The position numbers and the translations under genes were made by a program. Below the pieces are notes generated by a model that was not told the origin of the DNA, made no database searches, and saw only the letters and a program-made list of their open reading frames with translations. DNA of 64,000 nucleotides from Blastopirellula sediminis (GTDB taxonomy: Bacteria; Planctomycetota; Planctomycetia; Pirellulales; Pirellulaceae): positions 3,814,481 through 3,878,480 of the forward strand of contig NZ_JAJKFT010000010.1 in the NCBI RefSeq assembly GCF_020966755.1, written 5' to 3'. Below, piece after piece: positions 1 through 64,000 of the stretch (its first letter is position 1; each line of letters starts with the position of its first letter).

Positions 1-2218
1 ACCATTCGAGCTTGCCGGTACCGTTGGCTTGCTTCGACACCGCGAAGGTGATCGAGTTTTCGCCCACTTGGGAGAGCTGATCCATGATGCCGCGATAGGG
101 GCCGGTACGACCGACGTAACCGAGGTTCAGGCCGTTGATCTCGAGTGCGTTGGCGCTGATCGTCAGGTTGTTGATCATCACCGAGCCGTCGGCCAGGATG
201 GTCCAGCCGGCCGGCAGCGGATTGTTCATCGCCGTACCGTACTTGTAGACGAACTTCGGCTGCGTCACTTTGACCGAGTAGGTCCCTTCGTCGATGCCGG
301 CGAACCGGAACGTCCCGTCCGCTTCCGACGAGAAGGCGGTGCCGACGACCACGCCTCCCTGGTACAGGGTTACTTGGACGCCGCCGATGAACTGTTCCGG
401 GCTGGCGTTGTTATTCGCATTGTCGTCCCACTCTTGGTCGTTGTTGACGTCGAAGAAGAGTTGACCCGTGATCAGGCTGTGGATCGGCACGCGGATCGTG
501 ACGGTCGCGGTGTCGGTGATCGGCATCCCGCTTGCGTCGAGGACCGGATCGCCGGCGTCATCGACGTAGGTGATCGTGTAGGTGAAGGTTTCGAGGCCTG
601 GAGTCGCCGAAGCGGTGTAGTCGATCGACTTCATGTCGGCCGCGATGACGACGCGACCGTCGGCTACCGCCGTACCGCTGTCGTCGGCGATTCCGGTGAT
701 GATGATATTATCAATCGAAACCGCCTGGCCGTCGCCGGCGACGAAGTCATTGGCCAGGACGTCGAGGTTCTGCGACTCGTTAACTTCCACAACGGCGAAT
801 GGAGTCACCGCGTCGCCATCATCCACCGCAACGGCAGCCGCGGAGATGTTGATCGTGACCTTCGCCATGTTCGAGGTCATGGGATCGGTCGCATCGGTCA
901 GCGTGTAGAAAAACGACTCCGTTCCCGATAGGTCGGTCGGCAGGCGATAAAGCAGGAACTCATCCTTAAAACCAGCGACCGGGTTGGCCAACTGATTGGT
1001 GATCATGACGCGGCTTACCAAATCCGGATTGGTGGTAAGCGAGGTGTCGGCGGAGATGCCGCCCGGCGTGAGGATCACTTCCGAGCCGTCGGTCAGCAGG
1101 TTTCCGTTGAAGTCGAGGTCGTTCGCTTTGACGTCGATCGCCAGGTACTTTACCCCACCGATGTCGACGATCCGCGGATCGCTCGCTTCCATTTCGTTCA
1201 CCAAGTCGGCCGAAACGTCGACCAGGTCGTTGTTGGCGCCCGGAACTGGAAGGATGGTGATATTGAACTTGGGAAAAGCCAGATTGACGATGTCGAGCGG
1301 CTGGCCCAGCGGAGCGTCGACGCCGTCGCCGACGGCGTCCTGGAAGAGGACGGCGGCCAGGTTGATGCTCGGCGTCACCGGATCATCAAAGACCGCTTTG
1401 GAGCCTTGGAGCATGAAAGTGCCGGCTTGGGTCGGGGTGAAGTCGACGGTGTACAGCATTTGCATCTCTTCCCAGCCGGCGCCGATGAGGTCGGTATTGG
1501 CGACGCTGGAATTACCGCCGGCATGGGCGATCAAGCCGGGGGTGCTAATGCTGGTCGGGACGCCGCCGCTGCCATCGAACGGAAGTTCGACCGTGCCGGC
1601 ATCGACCGGCTGAACGATCGTCGAATCGAAGCTGATGTCGAGATAAGCCGCGGTAACGTCAGGCGTGGTAAACGCGCCGCCGGTGAGAGCCGACGTGTTG
1701 CGCATGTAAACCTTCAGCGTGAAGGTGTCTTGCGTAAGGTTGATGTTCACGGGGGTCATGACCGGCATGTTCGCCATGTCGAACGTCGTGTCGGCGGTGT
1801 CGACCAACATCCCGTTTTGATAGATCTCAAACGTGAATGCGGCGGAATACGACGAATCGGCGTCTTCCCCTTCGATCAGCGAAGAGAGCATCGAGTTGAG
1901 GTCGAGCGGATTGAAGGCGCCGTCGTTGTTGACGTCGAGATAGAGGACCTGCTCCCCTTCGAGTCCCCCAGCCGCTTGCGAATTGACCATGTAGTTTTGG
2001 AATCCAAGTTCCAGTTGCGAAACCAGAATTTGGAGGTCGGTTTGGTCAACGACCTCGTCGCCGTTGACGTCGTGCGACATGTTGGCGTTATGCCACGCGT
2101 TGAGGTCAGCAGCCATCATGGCTCGTGATTCCAGGGCTTCCATTTTGGCGCCAAGATTCCGCGAGGAGCGACGGGCGGAGGGGCGGCGTTTGGAGGCAGA
2201 TTTATTTCGCTTTTTCAT
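1..2218 (-). CDS. Secreted dockerin-repeat surface protein, 3' part missing
   Basis: The frame is open from an ATG at 2218 to the left edge (739 codons seen), so the C-terminus lies outside the window. The N-terminus is very basic and ends in MEALESRAMMAA, the planctomycete L-E-x-R export motif. Two dockerin-like calcium loops follow at about residues 49-120 (DVNGDEVVDQTDL and DVNNDGAFNPLDL). Next comes a beta-sandwich at about 130-300 that resembles a cohesin or carbohydrate-binding fold, then cadherin/Ig-like modules, including one near 460-560 with the LDVLANDF signature. An SdrD-B-like domain is at about 580-650 (GQLFFDVNNDQEWDD, then an SVKVTQP strand). Role inferred: extracellular structural or adhesive protein. 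The dockerin is N-terminal here, while its neighbours carry theirs near the C-terminus. No Shine-Dalgarno is visible before the ATG. Sure of coding and export class, unsure of function. Confidence 0.9.
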   Translation of the reverse strand, partial: MKKRNKSASKRRPSARRSSRNLGAKMEALESRAMMAADLNAWHNANMSHDVNGDEVVDQTDLQILVSQLELGFQNYMVNSQAAGGLEGEQVLYLDVNNDGAFNPLDLNSMLSSLIEGEDADSSYSAAFTFEIYQNGMLVDTADTTFDMANMPVMTPVNINLTQDTFTLKVYMRNTSALTGGAFTTPDVTAAYLDISFDSTIVQPVDAGTVELPFDGSGGVPTSISTPGLIAHAGGNSSVANTDLIGAGWEEMQMLYTVDFTPTQAGTFMLQGSKAVFDDPVTPSINLAAVLFQDAVGDGVDAPLGQPLDIVNLAFPKFNITILPVPGANNDLVDVSADLVNEMEASDPRIVDIGGVKYLAIDVKANDLDFNGNLLTDGSEVILTPGGISADTSLTTNPDLVSRVMITNQLANPVAGFKDEFLLYRLPTDLSGTESFFYTLTDATDPMTSNMAKVTINISAAAVAVDDGDAVTPFAVVEVNESQNLDVLANDFVAGDGQAVSIDNIIITGIADDSGTAVADGRVVIAADMKSIDYTASATPGLETFTYTITYVDDAGDPVLDASGMPITDTATVTIRVPIHSLITGQLFFDVNNDQEWDDNANNNASPEQFIGGVQVTLYQGGVVVGTAFSSEADGTFRFAGIDEGTYSVKVTQPKFVYKYGTAMNNPLPAGWTILADGSVMINNLTISANALEINGLNLGYVGRTGPYRGIMDQLSQVGENSITFAVSKQANGTGKLEW

Positions 2219-4624: not shown

Positions 4625-7363
4625 ATGTCCTCCGCTCGCCGATTTCGACAGCAGCGCACGCGCCGCAACGGAAAATCGGCGTCGGCGGCGCTGCGGTTCG
4701 AATCGCTCGAATCGCGGATTAATTTCTCAGGCGTCCCGTTCGGCGCCGCTGCGACCGATACCGGCGAATTCATGCTGGGGGACGTCTCCGTCACCGTCGT
4801 CTTTCTTGAGTCGAACGGCCAGATTGACGCGAGCACCGAAGATTGGACGCAGTCCCTGATCGACGCCAACAAAGCGAAGGTGGACGAGGCGCTGCAGTGG
4901 TGGGTCGATACGCTCGCGCTGCAGAATTCGGTCCACGAGCTTAACTTCCATATCGACTATCAATACGCCGATACGCCTGTGCCGACCCGCTATGAGCCGA
5001 TCAAGCATACGGCCGCCGAATTCGACAAGTGGGTCGGCGATTTCTTGACCTACGTCGGCGCCGAACGGACCGGCGATATTATTAAAGACATCCGGCTCTA
5101 CAACAATTTCGTCCGCGTTACCGAAGGGACCAATTGGGCCTTTACGATTTTCATCGCCAACGCAGATGATGATGCTGACGGCTTTTGGGATGGCAATGTT
5201 CTCGGCGGGTTTTCGATCGCGGGGGGCGCATTCCTGGCGTTGCCTAGTTCCCGTCCCGCCAGCACGATCGCCCATGAAACGGCACACCAGTTTTGGGCGA
5301 TGGACGAGTATGGCGGTAAAGATTACTACGATCACCGCGGCTACTACGATACCCAAAACACCAATGCGACCCTCGAAAATCCGCATCCTGAATTGATCGT
5401 CGATAGTCTGATGCTATCGGGCCAACGGCTGCAGAACGCGTACGACAGTCACACGAGTTCGACCTCGCTGTTTGAAACGATCGGCTGGAAAGACTCCGAC
5501 GGCGACGGCATCTTCGACGTTCTCGATCAGCCGCTTTCGCTGAAGGGCAGCGGGGCGCTCGACGCCGATACGCTGCAGTATCATTTCGTCGGTCAAGCGG
5601 CGGTCGGCGTTCTGCCGAATTTAAACACCGCCGGAACGCAGCAGTCGGTGAATAAGTTTCTGCAGCATGACATGACCATCAATACGGTCGCCGCCGTGCA
5701 GTACCGGATTGACGGCGGCGATTGGCAGACGGCGCAGACGTACGACGATTACGTCGCCGACATCGACATTTCGATCGCATTGCCCAATTCGGGGAATCAT
5801 ACGATCGAGATTCGCGCGATCGATGCGACCGGAGCGATTACGTCCGACGTCTTGACTGGCTCCACGTCCGAGATCACGCCGGTCGCGCAATTGGGCGCCA
5901 ACGGCTTTCTGTTTGCAGATCGCAACGGCAACGGCGTCTACGATTTCGGCGAGACGGGGCTGACCGGCTGGACCGTCGCCCTGGTCGATTCGCAAAGCAC
6001 GCCGGTCCAGACCGAGATCCTGGTTGAGCCGGACGACTTTGGCGCCGGCGACGTCATCGACGATCTCGTGCCAGGAGCTTCGTTCTCCGCCTTCGGCGAC
6101 AATATTACCCCGGTCTTCCCCAACGTCTTTTCGCTGACCAACGTCGATGCGACGACCGGAGCCCGCGTCTTTGGCTACTATCGTTCGACCGACGAGTCGA
6201 CGGGCAACTTTTCCGAGTGGAATTCGCTCCAGCAACTGCGGGTCGATTTCGACTCGCTGGTTAGTCGCGTTTCGATCGACGCCATCGGGACCGACGTCGG
6301 CAGCATCGGGCGGCTGGAAGCGTTTGACGCCTTGGGCAATCTGATCGGTCGCTATACGACCGCGGAACTCGCCGCCGGGGAAGCCGAAACGATGAGCGTC
6401 GAATTCGATTCGCCGCAGATCTCTTACATTGTGGTCGCGGGCCAGTTGGAGACGAGCGTTCGTCTCGATAACTTCTCGGCCGGTCGACCTGCAACGGTCG
6501 AGACCGACGCTTTTGGCGCGTTCGCGCTGCAAATGGACGTCGCCGGCGACTATCAACTGCAAATCACGCCTCCTGGGGGCGACTCTCAGTCTTACTCCAT
6601 CGTCGGCAGCACGACCGTCAACTACGCCCTGGCGCCTTTGACCGGGTTTCAGTTTGCGATCCACATCGAAACGTTGGCTTGGCGCAATCCTTATAACGCC
6701 GCTGACGTTAACGATGACGGGACGGCCGATGAGAGCGACTTTGAGTTGATCCTGGCGGAACTTACGAACCAAACCTATTTGGCCGTTGGCCAGATCACCG
6801 GGGATCACTCCTCCCCTGCCCCGTTCCTCGACGCGAACGGAGATGGCTATTTCAATTTGCTCGACGCCATGCGGGTCCTCGACCGGCTCCTGATCGCTCA
6901 ATTGGGAACGCCGCCGCAGGAAGGGGAAGCGGTCGTCGCTGGCGACAGCTTCATTGCGGGCTCGAGCAGCGGCGATGAAGCGATCGATTCGAGCCAGGAA
7001 TCGTCTCTGGAGGCTGCGAGCCTTCCGGGAGAATCGTTGGTTGAGTCCGAATCGAGCGTTTCGGCGTCAAACGACTTCGTCGTTGCGACCGCCGCTCAGC
7101 CCTTCTCCGCCTCTCTGGCCGATCTGGGGCTGGGTAAGTTGACCGCAACCGTCGCTGTCGAGGGCGAAGACATCGCCTTCGAGGGAGGCGTGGCGAGCGA
7201 TGAGGTTTCGCTTTCGATTGATTCGTCGAATTCCATGACGGTCGACGATCGGATTCTGGCGATTGCCGCTGACGATTTCTACTTGGGGCTGGGTCGCGAC
7301 GACGAAGACGGGGAATTCGATTTGTTCGATCCCTGGGGCGGCGACCTGGACATTATTGAATAG
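4625..7363 (+). CDS. Secreted zinc metalloprotease with SdrD-B-like and dockerin domains
   Basis: A 912-aa protein starting MSSARRFRQQRTRRNGK and reaching FESLESRINFSG, the shared L-E-x-R export signal. A catalytic zinc motif HETAHQFWAMDEY is at residues 217-229: two histidines and the general-base glutamate, with a DEY a few residues on. This resembles the M64 (IgA peptidase) pattern HExGHxxxxxxDEY, but one residue shorter. An SdrD-B-like module follows (GFLFADRNGNGVYDFGETG, about 423), then a long beta-region and a dockerin-like pair at ~690-757 (DVNDDGTADESDF, DANGDGYFNLLDA). The tail is serine-rich then strongly acidic, ending GGDLDIIE. It probably shares a transcript with the preceding dockerin gene. 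Inferred role: extracellular or cell-surface protease tethered by the dockerin. Protease activity is likely but the family is uncertain. Confidence 0.92.
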   Translation: MSSARRFRQQRTRRNGKSASAALRFESLESRINFSGVPFGAAATDTGEFMLGDVSVTVVFLESNGQIDASTEDWTQSLIDANKAKVDEALQWWVDTLALQNSVHELNFHIDYQYADTPVPTRYEPIKHTAAEFDKWVGDFLTYVGAERTGDIIKDIRLYNNFVRVTEGTNWAFTIFIANADDDADGFWDGNVLGGFSIAGGAFLALPSSRPASTIAHETAHQFWAMDEYGGKDYYDHRGYYDTQNTNATLENPHPELIVDSLMLSGQRLQNAYDSHTSSTSLFETIGWKDSDGDGIFDVLDQPLSLKGSGALDADTLQYHFVGQAAVGVLPNLNTAGTQQSVNKFLQHDMTINTVAAVQYRIDGGDWQTAQTYDDYVADIDISIALPNSGNHTIEIRAIDATGAITSDVLTGSTSEITPVAQLGANGFLFADRNGNGVYDFGETGLTGWTVALVDSQSTPVQTEILVEPDDFGAGDVIDDLVPGASFSAFGDNITPVFPNVFSLTNVDATTGARVFGYYRSTDESTGNFSEWNSLQQLRVDFDSLVSRVSIDAIGTDVGSIGRLEAFDALGNLIGRYTTAELAAGEAETMSVEFDSPQISYIVVAGQLETSVRLDNFSAGRPATVETDAFGAFALQMDVAGDYQLQITPPGGDSQSYSIVGSTTVNYALAPLTGFQFAIHIETLAWRNPYNAADVNDDGTADESDFELILAELTNQTYLAVGQITGDHSSPAPFLDANGDGYFNLLDAMRVLDRLLIAQLGTPPQEGEAVVAGDSFIAGSSSGDEAIDSSQESSLEAASLPGESLVESESSVSASNDFVVATAAQPFSASLADLGLGKLTATVAVEGEDIAFEGGVASDEVSLSIDSSNSMTVDDRILAIAADDFYLGLGRDDEDGEFDLFDPWGGDLDIIE

Positions 7364-7586
7364 TCCGCCGCCGCTGATCTGTCGCTGTTTGTCGCTTCTG
7401 ATTGGGCAGAGACGGACCGTCGTCCATTCGGCCGCGTGCGTCTTGCTGTAGCACGCTGTCGCTCCGGCCCCCTTTCTCTCCGGGCAGGCCTTGTCGATCG
7501 ATAGACCGCATCCTGCGGACGTCGCTGCGGCCTCCCATTCGCGCGATCGCCCTGGCGCCTCCGATGCTGCCCCGCAATCGACCAAC

Positions 7587-7618
7587 AAAAAAGGCCTCCC
7601 CGTGAAGGGAGGCCTTTC
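7587..7618 (-). terminator. Rho-independent terminator of the giant protein gene
   Basis: A perfect 10-bp stem, AAGGCCTCCC (7591-7600) with GGGAGGCCTT (7607-7616), encloses a 6-nt loop. Read on the minus strand it ends in a run of six T, and it lies about 30 bp past the stop of the giant gene. On the plus strand the T run is only three, so it could serve the convergent metalloprotease gene only weakly. Confidence 0.88.
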
Positions 7619-7644
7619 GTTTGGTTGTCTGCGAACGGAGGAGA

Positions 7645-10600
7645 CTACGCTTGGTCGTCGCTGATCAGGGCGATCAGGTCGTCCATCTCGTCCGAATCTT
7701 CGCCATCGACTCGCCAGGCGTCGTTGACGTCATCGGCGACCGACAACAGCACGGCGTCGATCGAATCGTCGAGGAGCAACTCGTCGCTAAACGACTCGTC
7801 AATTTCGTCGTACGCGACAGTCGACGAACTGGTTTGGCTCGACGTCGTAACGGTCGACTTCGTCTGCTGAATGCTCAGGCCGAAGAGGTCAATCGTCGGT
7901 TGGCTCGTCGGGTTGGCCGAGATCGTCGTCGTCGACGAATCGACAAGCGTGCTCGACGTCGTCGTAAAGGTCGGCGAGACCGATAGGCTGGCATCCGTTT
8001 GCGCTTCGCTCGTCGAGGCGACGACCAGCGGAGTGTTCTCAACCGCCGGGTTCACCACTTCGATCGACGAAACCATGCCGGAGTCTTCCACCAATTCCGG
8101 ATTGACGACCACCGGGTTAGCCAGCAGGTAATTCAGGACGATGTTGTAGTCCAGAATCGTGACGGCGTAGTCGTCATTGGCGTCCAGGTAGTTCGGGATG
8201 CCGTTGGGGAACATAATCGCCGCGGCGGCGTTGTCGAAGCCGTCGTTGACCGGATGGTACGGCGACAGGAATTCGCCGGTCATCGAGTCGGTGTAGACGT
8301 GGTGCTCCAGTTCGTACAGGATCGCCGTCAAGTCGTGTGAACTGACGACCGTATCACCCGGCGTAATGCCGGCCGGCAAGGCCGCTCGGTACCATGGGTT
8401 TTCCAATCCCGGCGTCAGCGTGACTTGGTAGTCTTCCACTTCGCCGTCGATCGCCAGGCCGGTTGCGCTGAGGCCGCCGGTGCTGCTGTATCGCACCCGC
8501 ATGAAGGTTTCGCCGATAACGCCTTCCGAGGAAAGCTTGAAGGAGATCGCCTGGCCTTGGCCGACGTTGGCGCCGCTGACGGCGTCGATGGTCAAAGCCC
8601 GGTCGAAGACGAGTTCGTCGTCCTCGAACATGCCGTTGCCGTCGAGGTCGACCCAGGCTTGGACGAAACCGTAGTTGGTTTCGTTCAGCGGAACGGTCGC
8701 TTCGATGTAGACGGTGTTGGTCTTGCCGATCGCCAACGAGCCGGAGCTGGTCGTGCTCGGGTCTTCAAACGTCACGCCGTCGTCAAAGTTGTCGCCGGTG
8801 GCGTCAACGTTCGGCTTGCCGTTCAGTTCCGAGTCGATCCCGGCGCCCAGGTGGAAGTCTTCTCGGATCAGGTGGCGAGCGCCATCGTTCTCCACATAGG
8901 TGTTGTATCCAGGCGAACCGATGACGTCCGGAGCGTCGCCGAAGTCGAGCAGGCCGCCGACTCGGATGAAGAAGCTCGTTTCATTGCCGGCGACCTTGTT
9001 CGGCTCGATCGAGTTCCCCGCGTTGTCCTTGATCAGGACCGGATCGGTCGGGTCGTAGGCCATGCCGGTGGTCGGATCAATCGTGAAGCGGTTCTTCAGC
9101 GTGACCTTGTAGGTGACCCCTTCTTCAAATACGCCGGAAACCGGAGTGATTCGAATAATGTTGTTGGTCGCGTCGTAGTCGAAGCGATAGTCGACCCCTT
9201 CGACCAACGTGGTCACCACGCCGGAGCTAATCTTCTCGACGATGAACGAATCGGACGAGACGGTCGAGTCGTCGATGCCGGAACCCTGCGGTTGCGTCGA
9301 GAGACCGCTGCTGTCGATCAGCTGGATCGAAATGTTGGTCAGCGGACCGTTGAGCAGCTGAACCACGTCGACGGTTTGGTCCAGGTCCAGGTTCGCGGCG
9401 TCGTTGTCCTGCGGATCGATCAGCACGCCGCTCGGACCGCGGGTATCGGCGCGGTCGAGGGCGCCGACGTCCTTGAAGCTGCTGACGCCGACGCCGCCGC
9501 TCGAAGCGACGGTCGGATCGTCGTAACGCAGCTGCCCCGACTGATCGCGAATCGGCGCGATCACCGGCGAGGTGGCGATGCCCAGCGGGCTGTTCAGCGT
9601 GTTGAACTCGGTGCGATCGGCGATCGAGTCGAACGCCGCGTCAATCGCTTGCGAGCCGGACGCCAGGTAGAAGTTGCCGTCGGCGGCGTCAACGAACAAC
9701 GCAGCGCCGCTGGCCAGCAGGATCGGCGATTGTCCAGTCGTCGCCGAGGCGCCGGTGTTGGCGCCGTTGTCCTGGAAGACCGTACGGATGATGCGAGTTT
9801 GCGTCGGCGAGACGCCGTCGGCGGCGACCGAAATGCCGGTCGCAAAGTTCGCAACGATATTGTTGACGATCCACGGACCGGCCTGGTTGTTGACCTGGAT
9901 GCCGATGTCGCCCGAGTTGACGCCGTACAACGTGTTGTTGATGATGCGGCCGACCGGGACCGAGCCTGGGGCTTGCGTCGTCGACGACGAGTCGCCGCTA
10001 TACAGGATGGCGCCGGTTTCGTTGTTGAAGACGATGTTGTTGACGATCGTCACGCCGGTCGCCAGGCGAGCCGTGTTGAGCTCGCGAGTAACGCGTGCCG
10101 AGCCCTGGTTCGGCAGGTTGTCGCCGCCGTCGGCCGCCGAGCCGCGAGCGGCTGCGTCGACCAGGATGCCCCAACCGGACGAGTAGGAGACGCGATTCGA
10201 GCTGATGATGATCTGCCCTTGGTCGCGGAAGTTGTTGCGATCTCCATCGTCGCCGTTGCCGTACGTGACGAATTGGAACGGATTGACGTAGCCGTCGTTG
10301 ATGGCGATCTTCAGCTCGTAGGCGCCCTTCACGTCCGAATAGGTGCGGCCATTGTTCATGGCGTCGCTCGGATCGACGTTCGGATTGTATGCGGCGTTGG
10401 TGTTATGGCTGACCGCGACGATGTAGTGGCCCGTTTGCAGCGGGTTGTTGACGGTATAGGTCAAAAGCGGATCCGAGGCGCCGCCGGAAATTGCGGAAGC
10501 GACTTGAATCGTGTTGGTCCCGTCGAAGTAGAAGAGCCGGACCGCCGTGGCTAGCGGAGAGCCGAGCGCCAAAGCGTCGACGTCGATCTGGATCGTGTTG

Positions 10601-13600
10601 CCAAGGCCCAGTTCGACCCGGTACATGTCGACGTCGCCGTTGAGCGTCGAATCGTTCGGATCGTTGGCCAGCGGGTTGTCGCCGATCTGACCACGAGCGT
10701 GGTACTCGGCGTAGCCCGGAATGTTGACGCCGTCCAGCTTGGTGTTGGTCAAGCGAGCGGTGTAGGAGTATTGATATAAAGGGCTGTTCGTAGCTGTAAC
10801 GTCATTAAGGAAGTAGTCATTGTTCCCTTCAACGAACCGCAGGGTCCCTGCGTTGATCGTGCCCAGGAGGCCGACGATCACTTCGTCGGTGTAAGGATTC
10901 TTCGGCGAGAGGTCGATCTGGCCGCGGGTCGTCTGCGAAGCGGTCTGCGAATTGACGCGAGCGATGACGCCGAAGGTTCGGGTCGATTCGGTCAAGCCGC
11001 GAGTCTTCTGGCCGGTGGTGTCGTTGATCCCACTGGTCAGGGCGCGAGCGACGTCCGCTTCGGACCAGCTCGCTCGATAACCGATCGTGTAGACTCCGGC
11101 GATCGTGTCCTGCTGAACCGTCGGGTAGGTCGTTTGCTGGTCCAGATCCCAGAAGCGGAAGACGATCGTGTCGACGCCGTCGCTGATTTCAATGCGGCTG
11201 TTGTTGGCGATGTCCTGGCCGGCGGCCGCCATGATCGAGTGCGAATCCGACAGACGGTCGTTGGTGTCCCAGACGTTCGTGGCGATGCGATCGCCGAAGA
11301 CGACGAATGTGTATTCCGTTCCCTCACGCAACTCCAGCTGGTACTGACCGGTGAAGACGTCGACGTTAATCGCATTCGGGTTATTGGTGTAAGCGGTGCC
11401 GCCGTTGGAGGCGCCGGTCACCATTTCGCCACGTTCGGCGAAGCCGATGATCAAGTCGTCGATGAAGACGCCCTGGCCGGTATTGGCGACGCCCCGTTCG
11501 CGCGACTGGTTTTGCGCCGTATTGCGGTTGAAGACGTCGACCTGTCCATTGTTGGTGTTGGACGAATTGATGAAGTCCTGCATCACGCCGAAGGTGTCGC
11601 CCTGCAGGTCCGCATCCAGGCCGATGCGGGAAGTGACCGTGAGTCCGGTGAACGAATCGGTGTACGAGATGCGGTTGACGGAGTAGCCAGCCAGCATGTA
11701 GACGAATTCGTCGTGGATGGGGAACGCCTCGTAGTCGATGAGGTCGGTCGTCGTGTTGATCGTCGCCAGGGCCATCTCTTCGTGGAAGACGCGCCGCATG
11801 ATTCTGGCGATCGTTTCATCGCTAACGCGTTGCTCACCCGCTCCATTCGGAGCTTCGTTCACAAAGCGATCGTCATGCAAGTCGATCACGGCCGTCGCTT
11901 GGCCTGCGAACATGCCGATGGTGCTTTCGTAGCCCTCGATCGCCAGGCCGCGAATCCCCAGGACGCCGTCGGTGTTGACCACGTACCGCGTTACGCTATT
12001 CGCCGTGACCGCAATGCGATCGGCGTTGTCGACGTCTTGAATGTCGCGAATCGTCACGGCGTTGCCGTAGCGGAAGACGCGAACCGGCGAGATCGTGAAG
12101 GCGTTGCTGACCGCCTGGCGGATCTTCTCGGCGATGTTGTCCGGCGTGTCGTTCAAGTCGAGCGAGATCGTAACGTCGCCGAAGGCGGCGCCGTCGCCGT
12201 TCTTGTCGAACTCGAACGTATGGGTTTCCATGCCGTCGGCCGAAGTCAACGTGAAGCGGTCCCCATCGGCGAATTCAGCGTACGAGCCGGCGGTGAACGT
12301 TTGCCCCTTGTTGAATTCGTAGTAGTAAACGTTTCCTGAATACGGGTCGGTTACCGAGAAGATTTCGCCGTCGACATGCTTGTTGGAGTCAAGGGCGCGA
12401 ATTTCCGACGTGTCCGCCGAGAACTGCGAAACCGCCGGCGGGTTGGGGTCATTCGGATCGATCTGGGTCACCGCAACGCCGCCGATGTTCACCTGACCGC
12501 CGGTCGAGAAGTCGAACCGGAGCTTCAGGTTATCCATTCCTGCGAATTTCGACAGGTCGATGCGGACCTGACGCCAGCTGCCGGTGTTGTCCCAAATCTG
12601 CTGGACGGTCGTGGTCGCGCCGCTGGCGGTCGTCGGGGTCGTGACGGCACGCTGTTCGAGAGTTTCCTTGTCGGTTCGATCGAATTCGTCGTCGACCGTT
12701 CCGCCGAGAATGGCGTTGTTGTTGGTCGCCAACTGTTGCCAGTTGCCGTCGTCGCCCGCGATGAAGACGCGGAGGGTGTCTCGCGCCAAGTCGCCATTGA
12801 CGTTGTCGGTGTCGGAGAAGTAGTTGAAGTACAACACCGGCAGGTCGGCCGCATCATAGCCTTGCAGGCTGAAGTCTTCTGTGATCAGCGTACCGTGGGC
12901 GCCCCCCGCATAGTCGTAGTTGTTGTTGGTGGCGTTGCCGGTCGCGTTGCCTTGCAAGTAGGTCTGTTGTTCGTTGCCGAACCAGAAACTGGAACCGCCG
13001 CCCTCGGCGTCGCGCCAATCGGTCACCGGCACGCTGATGCCGTGTCCGGCGTCGCCGGAACGAGTGCTCGTCATGTGCCAGAGGTTGCGATTCAGCGTGC
13101 TGAAGGCGACGCCGGTGATGTTGGCGGAACCAAGGTTGACCCCTTGGCCCATCGCCGTCGTGATCGAAGTGCGGCCGCCGGCGAAGACCGGCGCCTTGAT
13201 CGCTTCTTCGTTGCCGAAGGCGTCGTCCTGGAGCGTGATCGCGTACATTGCGCCGTCATCGGTCATGGCGAAGAGGACGTTGGCGTAGTCGCCGCCGCTG
13301 ACCAGGTTCGGTCCCGCATCGAGGCTGACGAAGCTGATCGGATTGCCGCCCTCGTCGGTGATGGAACCAAGGTAGTCGGTCGCGAACGTGCCGCCGTTGG
13401 CGCCATAGATGCGGAACACGCCCCCTAAGTCGTCAACCGCGTACAGGTTGCCCTGCAAGATCGTCAAGCCGGTAACCTGACCGCCCGAGCCGACGCCGCC
13501 GACTTGGAAGAGCATGTTGGTGTCGTCGACGGAGGCCGTTCCGCCGTTGAAGGTAACGAGCGAGGAAGTGGCGATCGCTGTAAATTGTCCCATGAACCCG

Positions 13601-54187: not shown

Positions 54188-55516
<1,329 letters not shown>

Positions 55517-55944: not shown

Positions 55945-57348
55945 TTACGCTTCGGCGCCCATTTCCACCATCAGCGGCCGACTGACGACGTAGAATTCGG
56001 TCGTCGGGATGTCGTCGCGAGATTCGGCGTAGCTGGTCGAATCGATCGGTTCGCTCAAGAGGGCCAAGTCGTCGCGAGAGACGAAGCCGAGCGGTTTTCC
56101 TCGGTCGACGATCGCGACGCAAGGAGTGGGATGTTCCGAGAAGTAGTTCACCAGCTCGCTGAAGGAAGCGTTCGATTCCATCTGCGGGAAGTTGGCGTCG
56201 ACCAGTTCGGCCGCCGTCAGTTCGCGGGAACGGACCGCACGGTTTTGGACCACGTCACGGGTAATGGCGCCGGCGAATTTCCGCTGGGCGTCGAGAACCG
56301 GGGCGACGTCCAGGTCATGCTTGGCGAACGCCGCAATCACCTCGTCGGCTGGAGTGGTAGAGGCCAATTGAACGAAGGTGGGACGAAGGACGTCGGCGGT
56401 TGTGGTGCCGTCAAACAAGCGGCCGTGCGAACTGCCGCCAGCGGCGTCTTCGTTCTGCAGTTGACGCAGCGAAGCGACGAAGTTGCCCCCTGATTTTTTC
56501 GCGAATTCGAGCCGTTCCTGGACGTTTTCCCACAGTTCCTCGGCGATCGGTCCCGAATCGGCCGAAGCGGCGACGCCGACGCTGACCGACAATTTGAGGG
56601 TGCTGTCGGCATGTTGGAAATCGGCGGCGGCGATCGTTTGCCGGATTTCCTCGGCCCACTGATACGCCTCATCCGAGGTCGAATTGGGAAGCAGAACCGC
56701 TAACTGATCGACCGAAGGCTGACACATGCGGTAGGTCGGCAGCATTTCGCTGCGAATGATCGTCGTCACCTGTTCGACGATCCGATCAAAACCGGGATCG
56801 GGACCAAAGCGAAGCGCGTAATCGACGTCAAACAGAACCAGGCTCACTTCGTTGCCGGTTGTAGCGGCGTCGCGCAAATCTTCACGCAAGAGACGGAGGA
56901 GAACCCCGGAGTTCCCCAAACCCGAACCCGAACGCCGACCGACCCGACGATGAAGACGGCTTTCGACTTCCAAAGAGCGAGCTGCGGCCCGAATGCGGAC
57001 CAGCAGTTCGGTAAAACGCAGCGGACGCGGAATGATGTCGTCAGCCCCCCCGGCCAGCGCGTCGAAGACCCGCTCCGGCGAGTCGCTGTCGGTGATCGCG
57101 ATCGCATAGACGTACGCTTGGGTGGAGTGCTGATCCCGCCGTGGACTTTGCAGAACGGCGGCCGCCCGCGGCGTGTTGGTGTCGACAATGACCAGGTCCG
57201 GCTCACGACTAGCGAGGGCCCATTCGGCCTGATCAGCGTCGGCCGCCACGTACGCTTCCAAGCGGCAAGCGCTCAAGAATTCGGCCGTACGTCGGAGAAA
57301 AGAGCGGTCAGGCGATACGAGCAATACGCGGAGCGGTCGGCGTTGCAT
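55945..57348 (-). CDS. Response regulator with degenerate GGDEF and paired CBS domains
   Basis: A 467-aa protein from the ATG at 57348. A receiver domain (1-115) keeps Asp56 (VIVDTNTP), but the first acidic pair is SPDRS and the conserved Lys is Arg108, so phosphorylation may be altered. The GGDEF domain (~145-300) keeps LVLFDVDYAL, but the active-site GGDEF itself is SVDQL (212-216, in PSVDQLAVLLP). It therefore cannot make c-di-GMP in the usual way. A C-terminal CBS pair follows (ADVLRPTFVQLASTTPADEV, VDANFPQMESNASFSELVNY), which in other proteins binds adenine nucleotides. Cytoplasmic sensor or scaffold inferred. Divergent from the FHA gene. Confidence 0.9.
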   Translation of the reverse strand: MQRRPLRVLLVSPDRSFLRRTAEFLSACRLEAYVAADADQAEWALASREPDLVIVDTNTPRAAAVLQSPRRDQHSTQAYVYAIAITDSDSPERVFDALAGGADDIIPRPLRFTELLVRIRAAARSLEVESRLHRRVGRRSGSGLGNSGVLLRLLREDLRDAATTGNEVSLVLFDVDYALRFGPDPGFDRIVEQVTTIIRSEMLPTYRMCQPSVDQLAVLLPNSTSDEAYQWAEEIRQTIAAADFQHADSTLKLSVSVGVAASADSGPIAEELWENVQERLEFAKKSGGNFVASLRQLQNEDAAGGSSHGRLFDGTTTADVLRPTFVQLASTTPADEVIAAFAKHDLDVAPVLDAQRKFAGAITRDVVQNRAVRSRELTAAELVDANFPQMESNASFSELVNYFSEHPTPCVAIVDRGKPLGFVSRDDLALLSEPIDSTSYAESRDDIPTTEFYVVSRPLMVEMGAEA

Positions 57349-57659
57349 AAGCGTCACTTGCTGAATAGCGGTCGAAAAGAAGAGAAGAGCGTTGACTTTT
57401 GGCAACATCGCCGCCGAAGCGACTTTGCAAGCCATCGATAACATAGGTCAAAAAGATTCGGCAAGCGGAGCAATCTTGGGAAACAAATTGGCAGGATTCT
57501 GGAAAATCCGTCGGTCCGGAGAATTCAATGCTATGTTTTCGATGCATGTCGCTCCGCTGCGCGTGCGCATAACCTTATCCAATGTCCCCTTTCTCGGCAA
57601 AAACTCGATGTCGGAAGGGTTCAAATCGACGTGACTTTTCGCCTGCGAGAAGGTTCCCC
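57349..57659. other. Divergent promoter region, GGDEF-CBS and FHA genes
   Basis: 311 bp between two divergently read genes, so both promoters must lie here. TTGACT at about 57393 (plus strand) resembles a -35 box, but no confident -10 partner was identified. No small gene or repeat. Confidence 0.45.
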
Positions 57660-58787
57660 ATGCACACAGAAGTCCTGTTCGATCCGCAAGTAGGCGCCCC
57701 GTACTTCGAAATTATTTCGGCGGAGAGCGGCGAGACGCGCAAACTGGCGATCGAAAAGTTTCCTTTTTCCATCGGCCGCAACGACTCGTGCGACTATCCG
57801 GTGGAATCGGGACGCGTATCTCGCGAGCACGCCTTGCTGCTGAAAGAAGGCAACCAGTATCTGCTTCGCGATTTGAACAGCACCAACGGGACCTTCGTTA
57901 ACGGCGAGAAGATCACGGAGAAGGTAATCTCCGACGGCGATACCTTGATGGTCGCCGACATCGAATTTGACTTCCACAGCGGCAATCAGGCGCAGCAGCG
58001 GCAAACCGTCACGCTGCAAATGGACGGAAGCCCTCCTGCGGCGCCGGCGAGCGAAGGAACTTTTTTCGATTCGCTGCATGCGTTCCGCCGCTGGCAAGAG
58101 ATCGCCGCCGTGGGCGGAGTTCGCGTCGATTTCGACGGCATCTACGATCTAACTTCCGGCGATCCCTTCGGCTTTCTTGTCCGCCGCATGATTGACGGCA
58201 ACGTCAGTCCGGACGATCCGATCAGCCGCAAGATTCTTGATACCGAGTGCCGTTTGACCGAACGTCTGCTCCGTTTGCACCGGCTGCGGGCTTACTCGGC
58301 GGCTGAGATGCTGCCGGAGAACGCCTGTTTGTTTCTGCGGCCGGAGCAATACGAGATCGGCTCGACCAGCTTTCTCGATTCGGTCGCCTACGCGCGTGAT
58401 CAGTCGCCGGAAGCGCGGCGGACCGTCATCGTCATTCCGGACGAAGCGGTGTGCGAACTGCCGTTCTTCCGTGAGTTTATGAACGAATTGCAGTCGATCG
58501 GTTGCGAAACGGCGTTCGCCGGGTTCCATCCGTCGAAGTCGCGGCTGGAGGATTACCTGGACCTGGCGCCCGACTACATCGAATTCCACGAAACGGTCGC
58601 CCGCGAAATCGACGACGATGCGCGACTGCAAGAGGCGATGCGCGAAGTGATTCGCACTTGCCAGGAAAAACACATTACTACGATTGCGACTGGGGTGCAT
58701 GCCGAAGCGAGCGCGCAGCGGTTCCGCGACCTGGGAGCGAATATGAGTCGAGGAAGGTATCGACGTCGCGACGCTGGGCAAGCGTAG
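57660..58787 (+). CDS. FHA-domain protein with degenerate EAL domain
   Basis: A 375-aa protein. The ATG at 57660 has AAGG 6 nt upstream, and the frame is open 26 codons further. The N-terminal FHA domain (~30-115) has the phosphothreonine pocket: IGRNDSCDYPV, GRVSREHALL (Ser54, His57) and LNSTNGTFVNG. The rest (~150-360) follows an EAL phosphodiesterase fold (FDGIYDLTSGDPFGFLVRRM, near the end TIATGVHAEASAQRFRDLG). The EAL, ITE-like, DDFG and EGVE motifs are all lost. So it probably binds rather than cleaves c-di-GMP, or neither. The end ...GRYRRRDAGQA lies out of register with the fold. A +1 shift would continue in good codons to 58815. Confidence 0.9.
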   Translation: MHTEVLFDPQVGAPYFEIISAESGETRKLAIEKFPFSIGRNDSCDYPVESGRVSREHALLLKEGNQYLLRDLNSTNGTFVNGEKITEKVISDGDTLMVADIEFDFHSGNQAQQRQTVTLQMDGSPPAAPASEGTFFDSLHAFRRWQEIAAVGGVRVDFDGIYDLTSGDPFGFLVRRMIDGNVSPDDPISRKILDTECRLTERLLRLHRLRAYSAAEMLPENACLFLRPEQYEIGSTSFLDSVAYARDQSPEARRTVIVIPDEAVCELPFFREFMNELQSIGCETAFAGFHPSKSRLEDYLDLAPDYIEFHETVAREIDDDARLQEAMREVIRTCQEKHITTIATGVHAEASAQRFRDLGANMSRGRYRRRDAGQA

Positions 58788-58895: not shown

Positions 58896-61800
58896 GTGTC
58901 AACCGAAGTTCCAGCGCATGTACGCGAAGTAGCAGGCTACCGCGTGCGCCAAAGAATTGGCGCAGGTGGGTACGGCGAAGTATGGATCGCCGACGCCCCT
59001 GGCGGACTGCAAAAGGCCGTGAAGTTCGTCTATGGTTTCCATGACGAAGCCCGCGCCGCTCGCGAATTGAAAGCGCTTTACCGTATCCGTAGCGTGCGAC
59101 ATCCCTTCCTCCTCTCTCTCGAGCGGGTCGAAGTGATCGAAGGTCAATTGGTCATCGTGACCGAGTTGGCCGACAAGAGCTTGAAGGATCGTTTTGAAGA
59201 GTGCCGCACCGCCGGGTTGCCGGGCGTTCCGCGGGCCGAGTTGCTTCGCTATCTCTGCGACTCGGCCGAAGGTCTCGACTACATGAGCGAGCAGCACTCG
59301 CTCCAGCACCTCGACGTGAAGCCGGAGAACCTGCTGATCGTCGGCGATCACTCGAAAGTGGCCGACTTCGGCCTGGTGAAACATCTGCAGGACGTCACCG
59401 CTTCGATGATGGCGGGGCTGACTCCGGTCTATGCGGCGCCGGAAGTCTTTCACGATCAGCCCTCCAAGCAAAGCGACCAATACAGCCTGGCGATCGTCTT
59501 CCAGGAAATGCTGACCGGCGCCCTCCCCTTCCCTGGGAAAACTCCGGCGCAATTGACGGCGCAACATCTCAGCAGCAGACCGCGACTCAACTCTCTGCCG
59601 GAAGCGGATCGTCCGATCATCGATCGTGCACTGGCCAAGGATCCCGCTCAACGCTATCGCAGCTGCCGCGAACTTTTGCAGGCGCTCGTCGCCGCGTCCG
59701 ATCCGTCGTCGAATCTGCCGGCGAGCGGCGTCAGCGTTCCGCTGGAAACGACCAACACGGATACGAAGACGATCTGCGCCTCCGACACGCGCACCACCGA
59801 GCCGACCGACGAAGAAACTTCGTGCGAACAGTCGGCGACGATGGATATGTCGGCGCCGGAACCTTCTCCGCTCAATCACCAGCTGTGGGACCATCTTCCC
59901 GAGCTGCAACCGACTCGCAAAGGGCCGGCCGCGTGGAACGCCGCCGAGTCGAAGCATCGCCCGACCTTGGTGGTCGGCGTCGGTGGGATCGGCGTCCGTT
60001 TGGCCTACTCGATCGAGCAGAAGTATCGCGACAGCGGTAAAGAACAGGGACAAGCCTGGTATCGTGCGCTCGCGGTCGATACCGACTCGCGGACGTTGAA
60101 CTCGATGGAGATTCCGCCGCCGCTTCCGGAAGCGACCGACATCACGCGGGTTTTGATTCCGCTGCGCCGACCGCAATCGTATCGAAGCGAATCGGCTCGC
60201 ATTATGCAGTCGGTCAGCCGCCGCTGGCTCTACAACATTCCGAACTCGCTGGCGACCGAAGGTTTGCGACCGCTGGGACGGATCGCCTACCTCGATCACA
60301 TCGACACAATTCTGCAACAGATCGGCGATGCGATTGACGATGTCGGCGAGCAAGCGCAGCTTACGCCGAACGCCGTCGCCGGCGATCCGCGCGTCATCGT
60401 GCTGGCGTCGATCAACGGCGGCGCCGGCAGCGGAATCGTCCTCGACCTGGCCTTCGCGATCTGTAATTTGTTGCAGAAAAGAGGACAGGATCTGAGTGAT
60501 CTGGAAGTGATGCTGGTCCATGCCAGTCCGCGCAAGACCGACGAACAGGACCTCGCACGCTCCAATGCGCTCGCCTGTTTGACCGAACTGCATCAGGTCT
60601 TGGCGTCTCAGAAGTATCCAGGCGATCCGTCGGCACGAGTTCCTGAAATTGATCTTCGCGGCGTCCGTCGCCCAATTTTCCAGTTGCTGCACTGGGGGGA
60701 TGAGCTGAACGAGGGTGACTACGATCGCCAGATCGACGAGCTGTCCGACTATCTGCTAATGCGAGCTCGCAGTCGCAGCGGCTGCTATCTCGACAATCTG
60801 AACGCCGAATGCTCGCAGAATGAAGGGGGCGTACCGACGGTCAACACCTTCTCGACCTACACCGTCCCGCTCAGCTCACGCTCGGCGACCGAACGCTATA
60901 GCTGCGAAATCGCCAGCGCCGTCGTCCAACGTTGGTTGGGGGGCGAAGAGCTCTCTGGCGGCGATCGTCGCCGCATGGCGATGCTCAACAAGCAGGACGA
61001 AGAGGGGGAAGAACGCCAGAATCGCTTCGAACGAATCCTGCAGCAGCATGTCGAACAGCTGGTGAGCGACGAGAACCTGTCGCTAGATCCGCTGTTGCAG
61101 ACGATGTTCGTGATGGTCCACAACGAACTGGGGGCCGATCCGGACGAATACTTCCGCGCGATCTTGTCGCAAGAGTTCAAGCAACTCGACCAGCCGTGCG
61201 ATGATCCGCTGCAGCGTTCGCTGAAAGTCTTTGAGTTCCTGGATCAGGTAATCGGTCAGGGCGCGGCCGAAATGGAATCGACCGAAAAACGAGGCGTATC
61301 GCTGCGCAGCGAAATCTCGCCGAAGCTGCGTGGACATGGCGAAGAGACCGCGCATCGCGTAATCGCCTGGCTGCTGTCCCACTTGGACCAGGAGGAATTC
61401 CGGCTGCAGCGAACGCGCGAATTGCAACACGCGGTCGACGACTATTTTCGCCAGTTGGAAGACAAAGCCCGCGCGATGGCCGAGCGTCTGCAAGGAGAAG
61501 TCTATCGGCATCGGCAGAAACTGCTTGACGCGAACTTTGACGGCAAAGACGCTCGCAGCCGCGATCGGGCGAAGAACGCCGCCAGCGATTATGAAGCGTG
61601 GATCAAATACGCCCACCTTCGAACGCATGGCGTAGCCCTGCTCGGCGTATGTCAGTTTGCGCAGGTCTTGCGAGCGAAGCTGCTCGACACGAATCTCGCG
61701 CTCAAAACCGTCGAAGGTGAGTTGCGTCGGCTCGCGAACTTCTTCGACTTAGAGATCGGCGCCGCTTCCGATACGTCGATTCGAGCGGTAGAGCCGCGTT

Positions 61801-62315
61801 TCCATGAGTTTCTGCTGGTCGCCGACCGCGAAGCGCGCGCCCGAATCTGCGAAGAGTATCATGGCCTCCAGAATCTGCTGGTTTGCACACGCGATGGAGC
61901 GATGAAGGGGGCGAAGATGTTGGAGAATATCTGCCGGACCGTCATCATTCGAGCCCAAACCGATCTTTCGCAATCGGTGAGTCCCGTTTCGCTGACCGGC
62001 GCTCCGCCCCGTGACGAAATCGCAAGGGCGCTGACCGATTGTCGGCCGCGACTCGCCTCGTTGGGAGGCGCCTGCGCCGTGAGCGTCTTTTTCCCCTGCT
62101 CGAACATTGGGGAATCGGAAGTTGGCAAGCTGCCGACGGCGGAAGGCGCCGCCGGGCTCGTTCCGTGCGATGTGCCGGAAGTCGTTTACTGTCAGCACGT
62201 CGAAGGGACGCCGTTGCGCGATGCGGCCCGGATGTTGGTCGACAACCGTCCCGAGTACCGCGATATCGCAGCGCGGTTGCACGGGCGAATTGACGTTAAC
62301 TGGCGCGAACTCTAG
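58896..62315 (+). CDS. Ser/Thr protein kinase fused to a tubulin/FtsZ-like domain
   Basis: A 1139-aa protein (GTG start, AAGG 10 nt upstream). Residues ~14-270 are a eukaryote-type kinase: GAGGYGEV loop (22-29), Lys43, Glu57, HLDVKPEN (138-145), DFG 157-159 and an AAPE motif. HLD replaces HRD, so it is a non-RD kinase, probably active. A Thr/Ser/Glu-rich linker (~280-345) follows. Residues ~355 on have VVGVGGIGVRLAYSIEQ and INGGAGSGIVLDLA (506-519), the glycine-rich loop of tubulin and FtsZ proteins, so this half likely binds GTP and may polymerise. The remaining ~500 residues are helical with no known family. FHA neighbour could read its phosphorylation. Cytoplasmic. Confidence 0.92.
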   Translation: MSTEVPAHVREVAGYRVRQRIGAGGYGEVWIADAPGGLQKAVKFVYGFHDEARAARELKALYRIRSVRHPFLLSLERVEVIEGQLVIVTELADKSLKDRFEECRTAGLPGVPRAELLRYLCDSAEGLDYMSEQHSLQHLDVKPENLLIVGDHSKVADFGLVKHLQDVTASMMAGLTPVYAAPEVFHDQPSKQSDQYSLAIVFQEMLTGALPFPGKTPAQLTAQHLSSRPRLNSLPEADRPIIDRALAKDPAQRYRSCRELLQALVAASDPSSNLPASGVSVPLETTNTDTKTICASDTRTTEPTDEETSCEQSATMDMSAPEPSPLNHQLWDHLPELQPTRKGPAAWNAAESKHRPTLVVGVGGIGVRLAYSIEQKYRDSGKEQGQAWYRALAVDTDSRTLNSMEIPPPLPEATDITRVLIPLRRPQSYRSESARIMQSVSRRWLYNIPNSLATEGLRPLGRIAYLDHIDTILQQIGDAIDDVGEQAQLTPNAVAGDPRVIVLASINGGAGSGIVLDLAFAICNLLQKRGQDLSDLEVMLVHASPRKTDEQDLARSNALACLTELHQVLASQKYPGDPSARVPEIDLRGVRRPIFQLLHWGDELNEGDYDRQIDELSDYLLMRARSRSGCYLDNLNAECSQNEGGVPTVNTFSTYTVPLSSRSATERYSCEIASAVVQRWLGGEELSGGDRRRMAMLNKQDEEGEERQNRFERILQQHVEQLVSDENLSLDPLLQTMFVMVHNELGADPDEYFRAILSQEFKQLDQPCDDPLQRSLKVFEFLDQVIGQGAAEMESTEKRGVSLRSEISPKLRGHGEETAHRVIAWLLSHLDQEEFRLQRTRELQHAVDDYFRQLEDKARAMAERLQGEVYRHRQKLLDANFDGKDARSRDRAKNAASDYEAWIKYAHLRTHGVALLGVCQFAQVLRAKLLDTNLALKTVEGELRRLANFFDLEIGAASDTSIRAVEPRFHEFLLVADREARARICEEYHGLQNLLVCTRDGAMKGAKMLENICRTVIIRAQTDLSQSVSPVSLTGAPPRDEIARALTDCRPRLASLGGACAVSVFFPCSNIGESEVGKLPTAEGAAGLVPCDVPEVVYCQHVEGTPLRDAARMLVDNRPEYRDIAARLHGRIDVNWREL

Positions 62316-62326
62316 TCGCGAGCGAC

Positions 62327-64000
62327 TTAGTAGCGACGCGTCGCCTGATTGCGCTTCGCCGCCTGCATGCGGCGATATTCTTCGACGGTAACGACCGGCG
62401 CCAAATGGGGCGTCGCGACCGGGTCCGCTTTCGGAATCAACTTCTGTTGCGTCGGCATCACGACCGGTTCCGGGATCGAAGGCGTCTGGCGTGAAGCGAC
62501 CTGCGGAACTGCGGCCGAAGTCGGCGGCGAGGCGACGCGGGGAACGGCACGCACCGGATTGGCGGGCGTCGTCGCAAGTTGCTCATGCGGCGCGGCATAT
62601 TCCGGCTCAGACGTCGGTTTCATCCCCGGTTGCTCCAAGTTGCTGACCCCGGTCGACATCTCCGACGGCGACAGTTGAGCGAACGCTTCGGGGCGAACGG
62701 GCGCGGGCAGCGGCTGCGTCATTGGCTTCGCCGGATTGGCGAGCGGAGTTGACGAGGCCAGGTCGGTCGGCAGTTGCGGCGCGGCCAGCTGTTCGGGCAT
62801 GGGGATTTCGACCGGAACCGGAGTCGCCGCGACAACGGTCGGGCGAGCAGGAGTCGCCACCGGTTGGGCCGGCGTCGGGACTTCTACCGGAGCCGGAGTC
62901 GGCTGGGCCGCAACAACGGTCGGTTGAGCGGGCATCGTTACCGGAGTCGGTTCAACAACCGGTTGAGCTGGAGCGGGAGCCGGAGTCGGAGCAGCGGCGA
63001 CAACGGCCGGGCGAGCCGGCGAGGTCGGAACTGCTTTCACCGCTTCCGCGGCGGCTTGAGCGGCAGGCGATGCCGTCCCGTTAGTTTCTCCCTCGAACAT
63101 CGGGCGGAACTTATCGACGCGACGGCTTTGTTTCAGCTGATCGATGATCGAGTCGCCAGCGTGAACTTGCGTTTGAAAGGCGACCAGCGTCGTCGCTTCG
63201 GACCGCTTCCCAGTCGATTCAGCAGCTGGCGCCGCATCTTGCGTCGGGTAGACCGCTTGCGGTTTCGCGGCCTTGGCGCCAATCGGGCTCGATGCAAGTT
63301 CGGTCATCGACGATTGCGGCATGCCTGCATCGCTACGCAGCGGATTGGCGTCTACTTTCGGAGCGGCGGTGACGACGCGCGACGAATTGACGGTCGGATT
63401 CTCGATCACCTGGGCTGCGACCGGCGGCTCCTTAGCGGTCGTGACGACCGGGGTGTTGTCCGGTTTCGGCGCGCTGAACGGCGACGAATTCAGTTCGACG
63501 ATTTGCGACGGGGCTTGAGTCGGGCTAAGCGATTGCGAAGCGATCGCAGGGTTCGTGGCCATCTGCGGCTGAGCGGTCTCGGCGACGGCCGGCAGTTGAC
63601 CGGCGGGAGAATCTTGAGCCAGACCGTCCTTGGCCGCGTCGTTCAGCGCGTTGCGGAGGGCGGCGGTCAACGAGCCCGATTGCGAACGGGGCGATTGCGA
63701 AGCGAACGTCGGCTTGGTCGGCGAGGCGAGCACTTCGGTCATCGGCGGCGCCCCGTTTTCTTGCGGCGCGTTGGCGACGGCGTGAGGATTCGTGATCGCG
63801 GTCGGCTGCGATGATTGGGGAACGACCGTTTGTTGTTGCGGGGCGGTGACGCTCGGCTGCATCTCGGCCAGGTTGCTGACCTGCGGCACAACGACCTGCG
63901 TCGGCTGCTGGGTTTTCGGCGCAACGACTCCAGCGCCGACGTCGCCGGTATTGTTGTACTCGATTTTCGGCTGCGTCGTGTTGGCGACGCTCGCTTCTTG
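62327..64000 (-). CDS. Pro/Ala-rich repetitive protein, N-terminus missing
   Basis: The frame is open to the right edge (558 codons seen), so the start lies beyond the window. The visible C-terminal half is low-complexity, Pro/Ala/Val/Thr/Gln rich, with a repeated [PT]-x-PTVVAA unit (MPAQPTVVAAQP, TPARPTVVAATP, SPARPAVVAAAP). The last residues are conserved-looking: APVVTVEEYRRMQAAKRN, ending ATRRY. Probably an envelope-spanning or surface-linker protein, as Pro/Ala-rich segments often are. Function unknown. Its stop is 11 bp from the kinase gene's stop (convergent). Confidence 0.8.
   Translation of the reverse strand, partial: QEASVANTTQPKIEYNNTGDVGAGVVAPKTQQPTQVVVPQVSNLAEMQPSVTAPQQQTVVPQSSQPTAITNPHAVANAPQENGAPPMTEVLASPTKPTFASQSPRSQSGSLTAALRNALNDAAKDGLAQDSPAGQLPAVAETAQPQMATNPAIASQSLSPTQAPSQIVELNSSPFSAPKPDNTPVVTTAKEPPVAAQVIENPTVNSSRVVTAAPKVDANPLRSDAGMPQSSMTELASSPIGAKAAKPQAVYPTQDAAPAAESTGKRSEATTLVAFQTQVHAGDSIIDQLKQSRRVDKFRPMFEGETNGTASPAAQAAAEAVKAVPTSPARPAVVAAAPTPAPAPAQPVVEPTPVTMPAQPTVVAAQPTPAPVEVPTPAQPVATPARPTVVAATPVPVEIPMPEQLAAPQLPTDLASSTPLANPAKPMTQPLPAPVRPEAFAQLSPSEMSTGVSNLEQPGMKPTSEPEYAAPHEQLATTPANPVRAVPRVASPPTSAAVPQVASRQTPSIPEPVVMPTQQKLIPKADPVATPHLAPVVTVEEYRRMQAAKRNQATRRY

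Follow-up and report, generated by a model that had tools for sequence, protein, structure and literature searches.

What could a bacterium use a protein for that joins a Ser/Thr kinase to a tubulin-like domain? This question is raised by a gene in a 64,000-nt stretch of the Blastopirellula sediminis genome (RefSeq assembly GCF_020966755.1, contig NZ_JAJKFT010000010.1, positions 3,814,481 to 3,878,480 of the forward strand), referred to here as the window. The gene (58896-62315, + strand), identified by its open reading frame (ORF) and by Pfam, starts with GTG and encodes a 1139-aa fusion of a kinase with a Tubulin_2 domain of the FtsZ-like-1 (FtsZl1) type. The gene is real, and a first-pass annotation made from the sequence alone had read it correctly as a kinase plus a tubulin-like domain. 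The fusion itself, which that annotation took to be an uncommon design, was however published in 2010 (PMC2875224) and mentioned again in 2023 (PMC9871819) and 2024 (PMC11032199). New here are a predicted tubulin fold that is split by a helical insertion and a recurrent three-gene module. The literature searched, which did not extend to the supplements of PMC2875224, contained no report of this split fold and module.

A predicted tubulin fold with a helical insertion

The tubulin/FtsZ-superfamily domain was recovered by Pfam as Tubulin_2 (PF13809) at residues 358-607, with an E-value of 7.1e-25 and 88.4 bits against a cut-off of 27, while the PF00091 match on the fusion protein (E 1e-4) remained under its cut-off. 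The glycine loop INGGAGSGIVLDLA stands at residues 506-519 (60411-60452, +), as first annotated. The VVGVGGIG strand is also present, at residues 359-366 rather than at ~355.

Residues 351-1139 were modeled with AlphaFold2 (AF2) from 73 aligned rows, giving a mean predicted local distance difference test (pLDDT) value of 83.9 and a predicted template modeling (pTM) score of 0.70. The best Foldseek match of the model was CetZ2 (E 3.9e-7), and the best 50 of the 54 matches with E<=0.001 were all tubulin-superfamily or tubulin-containing entries. In the VIA comparison, CetZ (3zid) matched with Z 24.4 over 303 residues (rmsd 3.7, model range 4..774), the BtubABC mini-microtubule with Z 23.2 over 326 residues (model range 5..789), and tubulins with Z of ~22-23; the best 50 rows had Z of 22-24.4 over 303-335 residues at a sequence identity of 11-16%. 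A Rossmann GTPase fold past residue 345, as the first-pass annotation had anticipated, is thus predicted. We know of no CetZ or tubulin that carries a kinase or such an insertion; the likeness of the window model to these proteins (PDB 3zid, 4b45, 5o09) is one of fold.

The first part of the predicted fold, with the T1, T2, T3-like and T4 loops, extends over residues 358-681 (59967-60938, +) to the helix past the strand at 648-657. It is followed by a helical, coiled-coil insertion at residues ~682-1055 (60939-62060, +), delimited by the AF2 secondary structure and by gap lengths in homologues, and then by a last part at residues ~1056-1139 (62061-62312, +), which comprises three strands and a conserved RxDVxW tail. 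In AF2, helices run from ~700 to 1055 before these strands, which lie at model residues 709-756. Since the VIA match ranges span the helical stretch and end at model residues 773-789, that is, at the C-terminus of the protein, we read the last strands as part of the tubulin C-terminal domain, with the proviso that VIA reports match ranges and not residue pairs. The tubulin fold therefore looks complete in the model, and its C-terminal domain seems to be split by a helical insertion of ~370 residues, the last strands probably filling their tubulin place. The C-terminal half, which had been described as lacking a recognized family, thus belongs to a Tubulin_2/FtsZl1 protein and consists of the helical insertion plus the last ~85 residues, the latter being joined to the tubulin fold by the model. 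The sequence of an FtsZ-like domain, an extended coiled coil and a mostly helical C-terminal region, characteristic of FtsZl1, is found here as well, though with three strands coming late.

The gap lengths in homologues support the split-fold reading. In the 91 of 101 proteins with both flanks, the gap that separates the last conserved part from the first varied from 35 to 427 residues, with a median of 364. The small gaps were those of L129 (35 residues), L130 (43 residues) and five others (146-215 residues, including 146, 159, and 215), and the L129 (874 aa) and L130 (788 aa) proteins keep the kinase, the tubulin core and the last part. The profile of the last part had no match in 10 of the 101 proteins, of which L076, L099, and L113 reach a contig edge and L049 is split over two ORFs.

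Sequence searches against solved structures returned just two insignificant matches for the tubulin part alone. With profile A3 (six of 80 loci dropped as short, plus L049 and L076), no FtsZ or tubulin appeared in the best 60 rows, and the four alignments printed were helical and coiled-coil-like. As a separate observation, L129:7244-9868 and L130:7458-9824 encode kinase-tubulin proteins that are nearly free of the coiled-coil insertion.

The probable nucleotide site

The family has four conserved loops, GVGGIG (T1), DTD (T2), a T3-like GxRPLGRxA (GLRPLGR in the window) and GGxGxG (T4), whose names we assigned by comparison with FtsZ. A tubulin fold with nucleotide loops T1-T4, the mark of FtsZ/tubulin GTPases, is accordingly predicted. 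The T4 signature GGGTG(S/T)G takes the form NGGAGSG in the window, with A for T and N for the first G, and its four shared glycines are kept in 66-73 of 73 rows. The T7 catalytic motif of FtsZ is NxDxxD. At the corresponding place, chosen by eye, the window reads SRSGCYLD and the family approximately TxAxxFFDxCR; the N and the first D are not conserved in the family columns, and the final acidic position is retained in 61/73 rows. Judging from these loops, nucleotide binding is likely. Because NxDxxD is absent, it is doubtful that hydrolysis takes place across an interface as it does in FtsZ. The polymer-forming role given to the protein in the first-pass annotation is not supported by the evidence here.

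A recurrent module with FHA-EAL and AAA+ genes

The kinase-tubulin gene is part of a recurrent module with genes for an FHA-EAL protein and an AAA+ ATPase. Among 38 kinase-tubulin genes, copied by hand from among the matches listed for 198 genomes of the class, an AAA+ gene lay within 10 kb of 36, an FHA-EAL gene of 33, and both of 32; all 38 ORFs included the kinase. Families f109 and f112, weak matches (G350, G121, G181, G475, G483) and ORF pieces were dropped from this sample, as were second copies in G397 and G400, the addition of which (no linked match among the listed rows) would give 36/40 and 33/40. Since AAA+ matches occur in 171/198 class genomes, mostly to a more distant paralogue, it is the linkage that constitutes the evidence, and the presence of an AAA+ gene alone means little.

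In a set of 89 loci, several of them short stretches and two of them (L025 and L043) one place, a homologue of the FHA-EAL protein was found in 82, of the AAA+ protein in 62 and of the window's receiver-GGDEF-CBS protein in 37. The order of the genes varied among the loci. The two sets overlap (e.g., L067, L092, L104, L109, L119, L122) and are not independent. The duplicate L025 was included in the 89-locus, EAL-residue and gap-length counts, and excluded from the linker, kinase-residue, EAL-tree and FHA-residue counts. The FHA-EAL and AAA+ genes also keep together: they adjoin each other at L122:16276-18704, on the opposite strand and >4 kb downstream from the kinase-tubulin gene, and at L067:12575-15026, directly downstream of it.

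In the window, the FHA-EAL gene (57582-58787, +; 401 aa as listed) lies 108 bp upstream of the fusion gene. This FHA neighbor, noted in the first-pass annotation, is a recurrent genomic partner. Its close relatives begin at ~Met27, and the gene is therefore probably 57660-58787. The residues R66, S80, and H83 are kept in 79/81 rows and N102 and N107 in 80/81; we take these to be the phosphothreonine-binding residues, and the protein thus has the conserved G-R, S, H, and N of an FHA phosphothreonine reader. Just past the FHA core, Thr142 (58005-58007, +) is a candidate phosphosite: its position is Thr in 66/81 rows, while in the eight preceding columns the commonest residue reaches only 15-28 of 81. 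In switches of the GarA/OdhI type, an FHA protein carries a conserved Thr close to its FHA domain. The window protein resembles them in having such a Thr and in adjoining a Ser/Thr kinase gene, but differs in that its Thr comes after the FHA core and that it has an EAL domain.

The EAL domain of the window protein is degenerate. Of the eight residues that we take to be catalytic or metal-binding, it has none, while all eight are present in 44/82 aligned rows. Degenerate domains were found in 35/37 FHA genes directly upstream of a kinase-tubulin gene and intact ones in 43/44 non-adjacent genes. A functional tie of EAL decay to adjacency is not claimed, as 5 and 6 changes suffice on a quick tree, the association is confounded by descent, and an independent-pairs test had no power.

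The AAA+ gene (54188-55516, +; 442 aa) lies upstream of the FHA-EAL gene. Its Walker A (GAPGNGKT) and Walker B (LLIDDF) motifs are mostly conserved (alignment A6, L076 left out). The five AF2 models differ, with mean pLDDT values from 81.6 to 53.0. The model at 81.6 identified the protein as AAA+, its best 50 VIA rows matching AAA+ proteins with Z of 12.9-16.7; the closest were an uncharacterized Pyrococcus protein (Z 16.7), Lon (Z 15) and sigma-54 activators (Z ~13-14). Only weak sequence matches were obtained to VCP-like, Msp1, and spastin ATPases, with alignments around the Walker A region. Spastin and katanin were absent from the best 50 VIA rows, which excludes nothing.

Kinase domain and linker

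The complete non-RD Ser/Thr kinase described in the first-pass annotation was recovered at residues 15-262 (58938-59681, +; Pkinase E 4e-30) with all its catalytic motifs: P-loop, K43, E57, H138-L139-D140, DFG, and APE. K43, E57, H138, L139, and D140 are invariant in 87/87 aligned rows, the window included, D157 and G159 in 88/88, and F158 in 87/88 (one F158Y). The non-RD (HLD) state holds throughout the 87-row set, and by its residues the kinase is active-looking.

A variable linker rich in Thr, Ser, Pro, and Ala (residues 263-356; 59682-59963, +) contains TDTKTI, a candidate FHA docking site. The pattern DTx[ST][ILVM], picked after the linkers had been seen and thus exploratory, is present in 11/72 non-redundant linkers against a shuffled mean of 1.0. 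As an FHA-docking motif of the linkers it was set aside as weak and exploratory; the pTxxD type is depleted.

The best PADLOC match of the fusion protein was MAD6, the MADS defense kinase, over kinase residues 15-275 only. Its identity as MAD6 was rejected for this reason. The full-length NCBIfam model gave 79.1 bits against a cut-off of 460, and the other kinases named by PADLOC and NCBIfam likewise matched the kinase region only.

Distribution of the fusion protein

Full-length homologues with 84%-85% identity were found in two genomes of the same genus. In one of these, Blastopirellula marina DSM 3645 (G389 = L025 = L043), the single PF13809 protein is full-length and 84% identical to the window protein. 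A second genus of the same family has four homologues at 40%-41% identity, and another family of the class has two at 38%-40% over approximately the first 620 residues and one at 29% over the full length. Among the 80 relatives kept of 155 in named genomes, the kinase lies in the same ORF in 79, the exception (L072) beginning at a contig end. The profile of the tubulin part had a match in 85/198 class genomes at E<=1e-3 and none in the other 113. No PF13809 or PF00091 match was found in the window's own genome outside the fusion ORF, whereas the PF00091 control gave matches in 13/14 genomes.

Relation to published FtsZl1 proteins

Four FtsZl1 proteins of planctomycetes were described by Makarova & Koonin (2010; PMC2875224) as carrying a kinase at the N-terminus, and B. 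marina DSM 3645 was among their aligned species; their entry is presumably the 84% homologue. In that paper, T6-H7 of FtsZl1 was left unplaced, the C-terminal domain could not be related to other FtsZ/tubulins, and it was suggested that FtsZl1 forms filaments by a novel mechanism or, as the less likely option, does not form them. The window protein shares the family and the kinase-first architecture, but its fold is predicted here to be complete with an insertion. While the main text of the 2010 paper gives vWA, GTPase, and OmpA partners (frequent, not defining), the window protein is linked to FHA-EAL and AAA+ proteins. The split fold, if true, shows where to find the remainder of the FtsZl1 tubulin fold, which had been left as a question in 2010.

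The only experiments on Tubulin_2 proteins found in the literature searched concern Synechocystis sll0445, whose interruption mutant, as described in the text of PMC9880817, showed impaired phototaxis and altered photosystem II fluorescence. Compared by the text of that paper only, Sll0445 has the Tubulin_2 domain in common with the window protein, but its gene lies in a cyanobacterial cluster with neighbors for FtsA-domain and DivIC-domain proteins. A functional study of the kinase-tubulin fusion was not found in the literature searched.

Proposed function and alternatives

We propose, with the chances about even, that the kinase-fused FtsZl1 protein works at the core of a tubulin-fold scaffold controlled by phosphorylation. 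The tubulin part would bind GTP or a related nucleotide and self-associate, and the coiled coil would be a spacer or partner arm. The target of the kinase would be a linker Thr of the same protein, the conserved Thr beyond the FHA core of the partner, or both, and FHA docking on the resulting phosphothreonine would switch the complex, which the AAA+ ATPase would remodel or disassemble. The EAL domain would provide a cyclic di-GMP (c-di-GMP) link in lineages with an intact EAL and serve as a mere scaffold in the window. Since the family is patchy, this would be an accessory spatial or signaling system and not the division machine of these bacteria. A more far-reaching version, a previously undescribed cytomotive signaling module of FtsZ-less bacteria with a kinase-bearing tubulin-fold filament, an FHA-EAL/c-di-GMP reader, an AAA+ reset and a variable coiled-coil arm opening the C-terminal domain, is speculative and in our estimate rather unlikely. 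A filament, if formed, would be a new cytoskeleton in FtsZ-less bacteria, because the fusion is the genome's only PF13809/PF00091 match. Because of its recurrent FHA-EAL and AAA+ partners, the former orphan can be studied as one of three proteins and the system reconstituted in vitro, making its function testable.

Several points weigh against the proposed scaffold or the fold on which it is built. The pTM is 0.70, the pLDDT is low (55-63) at model residues 721-740, the structural matches are ranges and not residue pairs, and the NxDxxD motif is absent. L116, L122, L126, L133, and two proteins of L123 lack a match to the last-part profile with no contig edge involved. The TDTKTI-like motif is limited to a minority of linkers (the 11/72 above), and TxxD is depleted in them (13/72 vs. 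24.4 expected by shuffling). The kinase-tubulin genes of families f109 and f112 are mostly without an FHA-EAL match.

Some of these points would also fit a non-polymerizing nucleotide switch or scaffold, in which the tubulin part controls the kinase as a GTP-bound monomer or dimer, without forming filaments, a serious possibility to which we give a minority share. It is favored by the missing T7 motif and the long insertion within the tubulin C-terminal domain, and Makarova & Koonin (PMC2875224), who could not find T6-H7, allowed the no-filament option as the less likely one. The predicted fold is nevertheless closest to the filament-forming CetZ and tubulins, though a fold does not show function. 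The same authors suggested that FtsZl1 and its vWA, GTPase, and OmpA partners make up a membrane-remodeling machine. This proposal concerns the same family, but we consider it unlikely for the window, where a Pfam scan of seven proteins (49.6-62.3 kb) found no vWA, OmpA, or vWA-operon GTPase, and the recurrent neighbors, compared among relatives by clustering, are FHA-EAL and AAA+ proteins.

For other tubulin/GTPase/HSP70 operons, Kaur et al. (2020; PMC7159879) predicted roles in biological conflict; an anti-phage system of this kind would suit the patchy distribution (85/198 class genomes) and the MAD6 match. That match, however, is limited to kinase residues 15-275 at 79 of the 460 bits of the cut-off, and the seven scanned proteins include no HSP70 or known effector, which leaves this explanation quite improbable. 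Least probable is an FtsZ substitute in the division of FtsZ-less planctomycetes. The protein is its genome's sole PF13809/PF00091 match, but a division core should be near universal; because 113/198 class genomes have no match, a division role is unlikely.

Further observations

In families f109 and f112, the kinase was present in 5/5 kinase-tubulin genes checked, and up to five profile matches were found per genome, some of which may be pieces. Two kinase-tubulin genes lie in tandem on one strand at L123:3495-7076 and 7178-10753 (G404), and close pairs of profile matches occur in further f109-family genomes (e.g., G517, G473, and G481, among the matches listed). This arrangement recalls tubulin genes that occur in pairs, for example BtubA/B.

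Between the AAA+ and FHA-EAL genes of the window sits a possible accessory gene for a receiver-GGDEF-CBS protein (55945-57444, - strand; Pfam), which by eye reads SVDQL at the GG(D/E)EF place. Both c-di-GMP turnover domains of the window, this GGDEF and the degenerate EAL, look inactive. Convergent with the kinase-tubulin gene, 62327-63889 (-) encodes a Pro/Ala-rich protein with homologues found only in same-genus loci (L024, L025 = L043).

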